A DNA stretch of 64,000 nt from Desulfobulbaceae bacterium (GTDB taxonomy: Bacteria > Desulfobacterota > Desulfobulbia > Desulfobulbales > Desulfocapsaceae). Numbering within the stretch: position 1 is the first letter of the stretch; the number at the start of each line of letters is the position of its first letter. The notes below the pieces were generated by a model. It did not search any database. It saw nothing but the letters and a program-made list of their open reading frames with translations, and was not told where the DNA came from. Of the stretch, positions 56,127 through 59,157 are shown one piece after another. The position numbers were made by a program, and so were the translations under genes. The stretch is from positions 1 to 64,000 of the forward strand of contig QZLB01000008.1 in assembly GCA_004796425.1 (NCBI GenBank). The letters run 5' to 3'.

Positions 56127-56591
56127 ATGAAATGCCCCTATTGTGGTCACCTTGATAACAAGGTAATTGATTCCCGATTAAATAAAGAAGCAACGATTAC
56201 CCGCAGAAGACGATCATGTTTATCATGCGATCAGAGATTCACTACATACGAACGCCTTGAAGTAATGATGCCGGTGCTGGTTAAAAAGGACGGACGCAGA
56301 GAACCATGGGATCGGCAGAAGATTGTGGTTGGTCTTGAGAAGGCGTGTGAGAAAAGACCGGTCAGCCGGGATACGATTGATCTGTTTGTTGATGAAATCG
56401 AACATAGCCTCCAGGATCTTGGTTCAAAGGAAGTACCTTCAAGTGTAATTGGCGAGTGGGTAATGGAGAATTTATCCAGACTTGACGAAGTAGCGTACGT
56501 ACGGTTTGCCTCCGTCTATCGTCAATTCAAAGATGTGAACGAGTTCATGGATGAGCTGAAAACACTTCTTGATTCGAGGAACGAGGAGTGA
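56127..56591 (+). CDS. nrdR: Transcriptional repressor NrdR
   Basis: The 154-residue regulator has a zinc ribbon (C3, C6, C31, C34), the RRRR segment and an ATP-cone ([20 protein letters not shown]). It represses ribonucleotide reductase genes according to dATP/ATP. TAGGAGGG precedes the ATG. Upstream TGCTATAGT resembles an extended -10 promoter element. I did not find a convincing NrdR box. Confidence 0.97.
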
Positions 56592-57712
56592 AACTGAGCG
56601 GAGCAAAAGACCAGAGCTATATGCGTCTGGCGATCAAAGAAGCTCGCAAAGGACTGGGACGCACATCCCCAAACCCATCTGTTGGGGCGGTGATTGTGAA
56701 AGATAATGAGGTGGTTGCCCGTGGGTATCATAAAAAGGCTGGCACACCGCATGCCGAAATCAATGCACTGGCAGCAGCAGGTGAGCTTGCCAAAGGCGCA
56801 ACCATGTATGTGACGTTGGAGCCGTGCAATCATTTTGGGAGAACTCCGCCTTGCAGCCAGGCACTTGTCAAAGCTGGCATTGATCGGGTAGTGGTCGGGA
56901 TGTTGGATCCCAATCCGCTGGTTGCCGGTTCAGGTATCGCTCATCTCAAAGAACATGGAATTAGCACGATGACGGGCATCCTGGAAGAGGATTGTCACGA
57001 TTTAAACCGCCCGTTTATTAAATATATTACTCGCTCCATACCGTGGGTGATACTCAAAGCAGGGGTAAGCCTTGATGGGAAATTGTCTTTTGTTCGAGGC
57101 AGCGGAGGGGCTGTAACTGGTCCAGAATCTCATCGGGCCGTTCATCGACTCAGAAACAGGGTAGATGCTATCCTGATTGGGCGTTCAACTCAAGAGATCG
57201 ATAATCCGTCACTGACGACCAGACTTCCAGGTCGAAAGGGCAGAGACCCGGTCAGGGTGGTCCTGGATTCAAATCTCATCATCAGTGAGTCGGCGAAAAT
57301 ACTCCATCTCACCTCAGAAGCTCCAACGATACTTTTTACCCAGAAAAATGTTGATGCAAAAAAGGTCGCACGTCTTGTGGCTCAAGGTGTACAAGTCGAA
57401 ATGGTACCGGTTGATTCAGGGGGTGGTTTGTCACTGAAGTCTGTATTGCGCAATCTTGGGGAAAGAGGGATTACCTCAGTACTTGTAGAAGGTGGAAGCA
57501 GGGTGCATGGTTCATTTTTGCGGTATCATTTGATAGATGAAGTGCAATTATTTTATGCCCCAGTTTTTGCGGGTGATAATGGTGTCTCGTTGCTCAGTGG
57601 TTTATCGGTGGACGGCGGCAGGAAAGATGCGATAACACTTGAGAGAATAAAAGTGAGAAGATATGGCGATGATGTCATGATTTCTGGCCTGATTTCCACG
57701 GATCGTCATTAA
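56588..57712 (+). CDS. ribD: Bifunctional riboflavin deaminase/reductase RibD
   Basis: Carries out two early riboflavin steps. The 374-residue protein has an N-terminal deaminase domain (zinc motif HAEINAL and [16 protein letters not shown]) and a C-terminal NADPH reductase ([25 protein letters not shown]). The GTG start overlaps the nrdR stop (GTGA). nrdR-ribD is a common pairing; other rib genes are not in the window. Confidence 0.95.
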
Positions 57713-57736: not shown

Positions 57737-58687
57737 CTAGATGATTCCAAGTTTCTGAAGATTTTGTATAAAATCTTTCGCTGCTGACAAGTCTTTAAAG
57801 CCGATGTGTACGGTCACATCATCCTTCTCAAATGATTGACTCCCGGTAATTGCAATTCCTTCCGGCACATTCAATTCTTTCACTTTTTTTTCAAACAAAT
57901 CATTGGCCCTGCTTAGATACGGATGACTTAACTCGAACAATCGATCAAAGAGCTTTTGGGTGAGTTGGGGGAGATTGCGATGCTCAACAAGGAGGAAAAA
58001 TTCAGCAAGTTCTGATTTAAAAAAGTGCTTGATTCCCGAGAGATCAGGACCTAGAATGATCTTGCTCATCTCAAAAAAGGTACGCTGTCGATTGTGATTC
58101 AATGAGAAGTCTTTAATGATTTGATAAATGAACCGCTGTTCCTCCAAGCCAAGTCTTATTAACTCGTAGGCGGTCTTTTCAGAAAGTTCAGCATGATGGA
58201 TCGAGCTGAGCAGCACAGGGTCAAGTTCAAGAAGCGCACTACTCGATTCCAGCTGTTTGTACGAGCCAATATTCAATCCACCAAAAAATCTTTTGCGTTG
58301 TTTCTTCTCCTTTATGAGTTGACCACTCATGATGAACAGGCGTGCTTTCATGACCGGGCTCAGCGGGCTATCGGAAACGATCTGTTCCTCTACGATACGC
58401 TCAAGGAGTTGCATCGGGTCGGAGGAATCGGTCAGGATTCTGCAGGATATTCCCGTAACCCTCTGCTGTGCTGCTGCCGCAACTCTTCTATATCCACTGA
58501 CAACTTCAAATGAACTAGCTGAACCGACCCGCCGCACCAGTGGGGGAGTAATGATACCGTGACGGGCGATAGATGCTGCAAGTGTGTCTTTAATCTCCTG
58601 GATAGGGAGATCACGGTGCAGGCTCCACTTACCATCATTAACGATTTGCTCCAGTGGAATTGTTTTTGTAATGATTTCTTGAATCAT
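57737..58687 (-). CDS. Orphan ParB/Spo0J-like protein
   Basis: The 317-residue protein has an N-terminal ParB/Srx-like domain (IPLEQIV, IARHGIITPPLVRR, FEVVSGYRRVAAAAQ), where the usual GERRxRA is GYRRVAA. The middle and C-terminal parts are helical and not typical of chromosomal ParB. No parA is adjacent. ATG 58687 has no ribosome-binding site because a terminator T-run ends six bases in front; a TTG at 58735 lies inside the terminator stem. It may instead be a transcription regulator such as the Noc/KorB-like group, but that is a guess. Confidence 0.78.
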   Translation of the reverse strand: MIQEIITKTIPLEQIVNDGKWSLHRDLPIQEIKDTLAASIARHGIITPPLVRRVGSASSFEVVSGYRRVAAAAQQRVTGISCRILTDSSDPMQLLERIVEEQIVSDSPLSPVMKARLFIMSGQLIKEKKQRKRFFGGLNIGSYKQLESSSALLELDPVLLSSIHHAELSEKTAYELIRLGLEEQRFIYQIIKDFSLNHNRQRTFFEMSKIILGPDLSGIKHFFKSELAEFFLLVEHRNLPQLTQKLFDRLFELSHPYLSRANDLFEKKVKELNVPEGIAITGSQSFEKDDVTVHIGFKDLSAAKDFIQNLQKLGII

Positions 58688-58693
58688 AAAATC

Positions 58694-58746
58694 AAAAAAA
58701 GCTGTTATTGCAAGCACCTCAGTGAGAGCTTGCAATAACAGCTTTT
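58694..58746 (-). terminator. Strong intrinsic terminator of the HU/IHF gene
   Basis: A 19-base-pair perfect stem (58697-58715 with 58728-58746, including AAAA/TTTT ends), a 12-base loop, and seven T on the minus strand at 58700-58694. The ParB-like ATG starts seven bases after the last T. Confidence 0.9.
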
Positions 58747-58801
58747 ACCATTCGCAGGAGAATATTCTCTCTGTGCTCTTCTATATGCGAGTTGCGGAAT
58801 T

Positions 58802-59086
58802 CTAGCGGTTAATCTTGTCCCTGAGAATTCCTGATGGCTTGAATGTTACAACCCGACGTGCATCAAGGGTAAGTTCTTCACCAGTCTGTGGGTTTCTCCC
58901 CCGTCGAGCATTCTTATCTTTGACATTAAATTTACCAAACCCACTTAGGAGCAAGTCTGAGCCGCTAATCAAAGATTCTTTTGATAATCTGAGAAAAGCC
59001 TCTACGGAGTCTGTTGCCTGAGCCTTGGTCAGTCCTTCATGGTTTTTGTATACCTGTTGCACGAGGTCAGCTTTTGTCAGCGTCAT
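58802..59086 (-). CDS. HU/IHF-family DNA-binding protein
   Basis: The 94-residue protein begins MTLTKADLVQQVYK and has LLLSGFGKFNVKDKNARRGRNPQTGEEL, the DNA-binding arm region. It looks more like IHF alpha than HU beta, but the distinction is not certain. GGAGGAG lies just before the ATG at 59086. Confidence 0.93.
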   Translation of the reverse strand: MTLTKADLVQQVYKNHEGLTKAQATDSVEAFLRLSKESLISGSDLLLSGFGKFNVKDKNARRGRNPQTGEELTLDARRVVTFKPSGILRDKINR

Positions 59087-59118
59087 ATTCTCCTCCAAAG
59101 TTATTATCTTTTTCACCT

Positions 59119-59138
59119 GTACATGATTAATCATATAC
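59119..59138. promoter_or_regulatory. Palindrome over the -10 box of the HU/IHF promoter
   Basis: ATGATTAATCAT (59123-59134) is a perfect 12-base palindrome; with one mismatched pair it extends to 20 bases. It overlaps the -10 box, a position for autoregulation. Confidence 0.45.
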
Positions 59139-59157
59139 GTACGAAAAAGAATGTCAA
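59130..59157 (-). promoter_or_regulatory. Sigma70-type promoter of the HU/IHF gene
   Basis: On the minus strand, TTGACA (59157-59152) and TATGAT (59135-59130) are spaced 16 bases. The leader is about 40 bases. Confidence 0.75.

Follow-up and report, generated by a model that had tools for sequence, protein, structure and literature searches.

The gene for a ParB-like protein that starts directly behind the terminator of an HU gene lacks a Shine-Dalgarno (SD) site and, as judged by sequence comparison, this absence is a conserved property of the gene in at least two families. The arrangement was analysed in a stretch of 64,000 nt from a Desulfobulbaceae bacterium (contig QZLB01000008.1), hereafter called the window; the host group consists of sulfur-cycling bacteria. 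We consider it likely that this ParB/Noc-like paralogue shares a transcription unit with HU as its second, weakly expressed cistron, which would be reached by leakage through the HU terminator and translated by SD-independent initiation. The conserved arrangement looks like a built-in way to obtain much HU and little ParB-like protein.

The HU gene and the ParB-like gene are both encoded on the minus strand. The HU/IHF-family gene (58802-59086, 94 aa) scores 97.1 bits with PF00216, and its best NCBIfam model is IHF alpha (106.1 bits, below the cut-off of 111). It is preceded by an SD site, GGAGGAG (59090-59096), with an anti-SD duplex energy of -9.3 kcal/mol, and by a promoter-like site at 59130-59157 (TTGACA, 16 nt, TATGAT), which is assigned by consensus match only (11 of 12 positions). 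The stop codon of HU ends at 58802 and is followed by a 3′UTR of 55 nt. The terminator (58694-58746, minus strand) has a core stem AGCTGTTATTGCAAGC (58743-58728) which pairs without mismatch with 58715-58700, giving a perfect stem of 16 bp around a loop of 12 nt, and the T-run occupies 58700-58694. The folding energy of the hairpin is -31.2 kcal/mol, and the surrounding region of 161 nt folds more stably than 200 of 200 dinucleotide shuffles (z -4.3). With a stable hairpin and a T-run directly after it, the element is an intrinsic terminator by structure, for which termination and readthrough in the cell are predicted. A simple terminator scan of the window listed nothing at the HU 3′ end because it takes loops of 3-8 nt, while the loop has 12 nt in this case. 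A 10-codon ORF (MVKAVIASSH, 58719-58751) extends across the 5′ arm of the hairpin; the SD score at its start is weak (-2.9) and the ORF could be due to chance.

The ParB-like gene (57737-58687, minus strand, 316 aa plus stop) is assigned by PF02195, a structure model and structure matches. Its ATG (58687-58685), assigned by alignment and the model, follows the T-run after a gap of 6 nt. An earlier note on this DNA had placed the end of the T-run at 58694 and the ATG at 58687, directly behind the HU terminator, and these coordinates are exact. The note had also claimed that the ATG is devoid of a ribosome-binding site, which agrees with an anti-SD duplex energy (positions -20 to -4) of +0.6 kcal/mol. 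A poor SD at a start codon is not rare within this window. The first ATG is SD-poor (score of at least 0) in 9 of 52 window ORFs, the ParB-like gene included, and if the best start nearby is taken instead, 38 of 52 ORFs attain -4. As SD-poor starts are common in the window, the finding is the conservation of SD absence in the ParB-like gene and not the absence itself.

Translation might start elsewhere, as the note had considered, either at TTG 58735 or GTG 58717, which both lie inside the hairpin as it had said, or at a non-ATG codon further in. The reading frame is open for 19 codons upstream of the ATG, to 58744, across the hairpin, and TTG 58735 with -2.8 kcal/mol has a better anti-SD energy than the ATG (GTG 58717 has +0.1 kcal/mol). 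However, ATG 58687 is located at the common N-terminus of 38 aligned homologues, with a W-x-(L/I)-H motif following some 20 residues later, and within 50 codons after 58687 there is no in-frame ATG, GTG or TTG. The first strand of the AlphaFold2 model comprises residues 6-11, so that 5 residues precede it, and structure alignments of the model begin at residue 6 for the best KorB and at residue 4 for the best Noc. Both the alignment and the model thus make ATG 58687 the most likely start, and a start at another codon is very improbable.

The arrangement was then compared in relatives. Among 78 genomes drawn from the class, 69 match the profile of the ParB-like family with an E-value of 1e-25 or better. 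From 82 genomes with a match, 70 main matches were taken, the window among them, whereas the other 12 had lower scores, were fragments or probably represented canonical ParB. A further 25 genomes with a main match contributed 24 loci, one at a contig end (G101) being left out. The first locus set comprised 94 loci, of which 91 were usable (L067, L069 and L070 were left out as fragments). A second set of 20 loci was picked by hand, 16 of them from one other family (f12). Another 19 loci, several of which are contigs already counted, stand outside all counts. HU upstream refers to the nearest HU-family ORF on the same strand, whose distance to the ParB-like start ranges from -4 to 478 nt in the first set, and such loci may include small genes between HU and the ParB-like gene. 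As related loci are not independent, the P values are too small.

A same-strand HU gene precedes the ParB-like gene in 78 of 91 loci from the first set and in 15 of 20 from the second set, all 15 being from f12. In the window's own family, this holds for all 72 usable loci, and the 13 first-set loci without HU belong to other families. The 93 HU-linked loci (78 plus 15, window included) were evaluated for an SD-like site, defined by an energy of -4 or better. Such a site occurs at only 7 of 93 ParB-like starts (7 of 78 and 0 of 15 in the two sets), and 86 of the 93 are weaker than -4, as would be expected for SD-independent initiation. The corresponding value for HU starts is 92 of 92 (77 of 77 and 15 of 15), the HU start being assignable in 77 of the 78 first-set loci. 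In each of these 77 pairs the ParB-like SD is weaker than that of HU. For comparison, 21.5% of random positions taken from the first 54 loci attain -4. None of the ParB-like starts is SD-like in 24 loci that were gathered after the pattern had been noticed. In one locus (L063) the assigned ATG falls within the loop of the terminator, and translation may really begin at a GTG downstream, so that the 7 of 93 may be 6.

The HU terminator also recurs. In the first set, a hairpin plus T-run at -12 kcal/mol or better was found in 59 of the 76 HU-to-ParB spacers with a length of at least 30 nt, compared with 9 of 76 once-shuffled spacers. The second set adds 14 of 15 spacers, giving 73 of 91 overall. 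Both the HU hairpin and its recurrence in relatives are beyond chance. In the 18 of 91 spacers without a hairpin plus T-run at -12, the ParB-like start is still mostly SD-less. The distance from T-run to start is 6 to 321 nt in 59 relatives (median 59 nt), and it varies so widely that the 6 nt of the window represent one end of a continuum. Tight spacing was considered as a conserved device and was rejected, as distances of up to 12 nt occur in only 5 of 59 first-set loci and in 0 of 14 second-set loci (range 36-104 nt). The earlier note had proposed a comparison of the spacing in relatives, which might have revealed an ordinary leader. It is true that most spacers are longer, yet 86 of 93 loci are without an SD-like site.

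Some loci deviate from this pattern. In L042 and L049, which are from one genus, the HU stop overlaps the ParB-like ATG by 4 and 1 nt, there is no terminator, and the ParB-like SD energies are -4.5 and -8.2. In five loci of genus g5 (L031, L039, L044, L048, L093) the spacer behind HU keeps a long hairpin but has no T-run, as seen by eye. In the window, the ParB-like gene has as convergent neighbour a RibD-like ORF (56588-57712, plus strand), named by eye from its translation. In six loci where HU is not upstream (L022, L046, L054, L055, L056, L064), the opposite-strand neighbour resembles, by eye, the end of RibD.

The ParB-like protein is recognised by PF02195 (28.1 bits, cut-off 26.3), which is also found at an E-value of 0.01 or better in 30 of 38 homologues. 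It stays below the cut-offs of TIGR00180 for ParB partition proteins (25.4 bits versus 58.45) and of TIGR04285 for Noc (32.1 bits versus 315). When the family profile was compared to structures, Noc and Spo0J were found, the best match being Noc (7ng0, E 1.1e-19). An AlphaFold2 model based on 19 sequences (mean pLDDT 87.1, pTM 0.75) was used in a Foldseek search, where Noc ranked first (7nfu, E 7.3e-8). In VIA-align, KorB (Z 11.8, rmsd 5.9, 198 aligned) and Noc (Z 11.7, rmsd 7.5, 191 aligned) are tied, in alignments which scarcely reach residues 215-316 of the model. Residues 92-212 align with the DNA-binding domain of Noc (6y93; Z 8.7, rmsd 2.7, 115 aligned). By eye, the C-terminus resembles the ParB dimerisation domain. 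The model for the central helix-turn-helix DNA-binding domain, PF17762, is detected in 10 of 38 homologues and not in the protein from the window. At the CTP-motif positions, G65 is present in all 38 homologues and R68 in 36 of them. The second CTP motif appears altered. The position of the Noc E-N pair, as read from the profile alignment, is occupied by D/E in 34 of 38 and by Q in 27 of 38 homologues.

As in Noc of Firmicutes, which PMC8429893 describes as a ParB paralogue present besides a canonical ParB, the ParB-like gene is not the only one of its kind in the genome. A second ParB on another contig has 112.3 bits with PF02195 and adjoins a ParA-like ORF (ParA by eye), so that the genome contains a separate canonical parAB. 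The protein shares with Noc its best structure matches, by profile as well as by Foldseek, but differs from it in the low score with the Noc model, in the apparently altered second CTP motif and in having HU as neighbour. It also differs in its N-terminus, as the 5 residues that precede strand 1 with the ATG start leave no Noc-type amphipathic membrane-targeting segment, which is described for Noc (PMC8429893). It has the ParB N-terminal domain and, as predicted by the model, the DNA-binding domain in common with chromosomal ParB/Spo0J, but it is below the cut-off of that family and is adjacent to HU and the RibD-like ORF and not to parA. The ParA-like ORF adjoins the other ParB. These sequence and model comparisons lead us to regard the protein as a putative paralogue of ParB with Noc-like affinity.

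How the gene might be expressed was addressed by searching for signals between HU and the ParB-like start. With a hand-written matrix that covers sigma-70 only, a signal at p<=0.05 was obtained in front of HU in 42 of 72 loci (combined P 8e-29). The stretch from HU to the ParB-like start attains this level in 5 of 76 loci, which is no excess (combined P 0.53), so that no sigma-70-like promoter is detectable there. One rough regular expression for sigma-54 sites, a weak test, retrieved none in 76 spacers. As no sigma-70-like signal was detected between the genes, dependence on readthrough, as the earlier note had contemplated, is the likeliest route. Together with this negative result, the gene order, the terminator and the SD-less start seen in the sequence favour a single transcript from the HU promoter that leaks into a second cistron. 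RNA polymerase would start at the HU promoter and most transcripts would stop at the HU terminator, while a leak fraction would continue into the ParB-like gene, the transcription of which would be tied to that of HU. Ribosomes would then initiate at the SD-less ATG just past the hairpin, in weakly folded RNA. Two serial losses, by termination and by SD-less initiation, would hold the ParB-like protein at a small fraction of HU. We infer from this that the level of the ParB-like protein is low and that the ratio between HU and the ParB-like protein is under selection.

The start region shows part of what is known from SD-independent initiation. According to PMC3121790, a weakly folded start region is a condition for it, and the ParB-like start complies, with a mean folding energy of -3.9 kcal/mol (HU start -4.8, ORF interior -7.2 kcal/mol). 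The shuffles of the same regions have -4.4 kcal/mol, and as the start is only slightly less folded than these, the weak folding is mostly due to composition. The 93 loci show an excess of A at -3 (38 of 93) and -6 (34 of 93), and of C at -1 (46) and -2 (44). A-3 is named as a determinant of SD-less initiation in PMC6847099, where A-6 is named as well. In the window, these two positions are T (-3) and G (-6), so that the A's of its relatives are missing. Thus the missing SD, the weakly folded start and the excess of A-3 and A-6 across relatives resemble SD-independent initiation as covered in PMC3121790, PMC6847099 and PMC5397173. What differs in this case is that the lack of an SD extends across families in a single orthologous gene, which lies directly behind the terminator of a neighbour whose own SD is strong.

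Leakage into a second cistron has to be weighed against other explanations, and several of the above observations speak against it: the frequency of SD-poor starts in the window, the T-3 and G-6 of the window start, the compositional nature of the weak folding, the mostly SD-less starts behind the 18 of 91 spacers without a hairpin plus T-run, and the use of a hand-written matrix restricted to sigma-70 together with related loci that shrink the P values. The same frequency of SD-poor starts would fit with a gene order that is simply inherited, the ParB-like gene being an SD-poor gene which happens to be behind HU, with untuned expression. Relatives without HU upstream have an SD-like site in 6 of 13 (first set) and 1 of 5 (second set) cases and, as these are only 7 of 18, an SD is not general for the ParB-like gene even elsewhere. 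Against this, the 86 of 93 HU-linked starts lack an SD despite protein identities down to 21-32%, and SD-like sites are rarer in HU-linked (7 of 78) than in unlinked loci (6 of 13; Fisher P 0.0026, with loci being related). Inherited order alone is thus possible but unlikely.

We regard it as rather improbable that the ParB-like gene is transcribed from its own promoter in or just behind the hairpin with a very short leader or none at all. The 6 nt between T-run and ATG would suit such a transcript, leaderless genes need no SD, and inspection by eye shows TTGCAA, 17 nt, TGCAAT within the hairpin (8 of 12 consensus positions, under the scan threshold). However, the matrix that finds the HU promoter finds no excess in 76 loci, and most relatives have tens of nt between terminator and start. 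A leaderless ParB-like gene was rejected as a candidate for want of the expected -10 element. TANNNT is not in excess near the start (81 seen versus 78.8 expected over 60 nt in 76 loci), with none at -12 and 4 at -7 (1.7 expected). A regulated switch, in which readthrough of the HU terminator is controlled by antitermination, by HU or by the ParB-like protein and thus couples both DNA-binding proteins, would account for the order of HU, hairpin and ParB-like gene in 93 loci, and the two proteins may act on the same DNA. This is improbable, as the best competing pairings reach only -6.2 to -8.6 kcal/mol compared with -31.2 for the HU hairpin and the spacing between T-run and start is not conserved. 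From the interpretation in the earlier note, the missing SD, the start behind the terminator and the likely readthrough have thus been retained, but leaderless translation, a start elsewhere and a terminator switch have not.

Across families, this orthologous gene lacks an SD behind a terminator while its neighbour has a strong one, and it thereby offers a natural test for the amount of protein that terminator leakage plus SD-independent initiation yields. The arrangement also raises the question why cells would keep the level of the ParB-like protein low, and it marks an HU-linked ParB/Noc paralogue. In literature searches, with most subscription journals outside their scope, no study of such a paralogue in these bacteria was among the matches listed, and there was no mention of Desulfobulb among the matches listed for ParB with nucleoid or HU terms. 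Desulfocapsa with Shine-Dalgarno gave no match, and Desulfobulb with ParB gave a co-occurrence with only one mention of each term.

The HU 3′UTR provides an additional lead, as it carries a 10-nt complement of HU's own SD and start. ATATTCTCCT (58765-58756, minus strand) is the exact complement of AGGAGAATAT (59094-59085), and the duplex of the HU 3′UTR with the ribosome-binding site has -18.5 versus a shuffle mean of -9.6 (p 0.01). In two loci from two other genera (L004, L011), TTCTCCTG is kept at the same place in the HU 3′UTR. In L033, the complementarity between the HU 3′UTR and the HU ribosome-binding region is very long (-30.6 versus -14.6 kcal/mol for shuffles). Pairing with the own HU site has p<0.05 in 10 of 45 loci of the first set and in 2 of 16 loci of a replication set (combined P 0.077). 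When HU sites were swapped among loci, P was 0.07, with UTRs cut to 60 nt, by which the strong pairing of L013 and L041 was lost. In all 61 loci, 12 have p<0.05 with the own HU site and 11 with a generic SD; part of the signal is general pyrimidine richness. The pairing is strongest in the clade of the window (g1 0.01, g3 0.01, g9 0.09), and in genus g2 all three loci pair strongly with their own HU site (0.005-0.01). We treat it as a lead which recurs in few genera and is not secure family-wide. It resembles the pairing between 3′UTR and 5′UTR of icaR in Staphylococcus aureus, as outlined in PMC3868564, in that a pyrimidine-rich 3′UTR segment is complementary to the SD region of its own mRNA, but differs in comprising only 10 nt, in being predicted from sequence and in not being secured across the family.

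A further reading, which is improbable, would combine these elements into a dedicated stoichiometry module of HU and a Noc-like ParB paralogue. Leakage and the SD-less start would fix a low ratio of ParB-like protein to HU and, in some genera including this one, the HU 3′UTR would pair back on HU's own ribosome-binding site, or would give rise to a small RNA that carries this seed. HU would thereby be autoregulated, and terminated and read-through transcripts would differ in translation.
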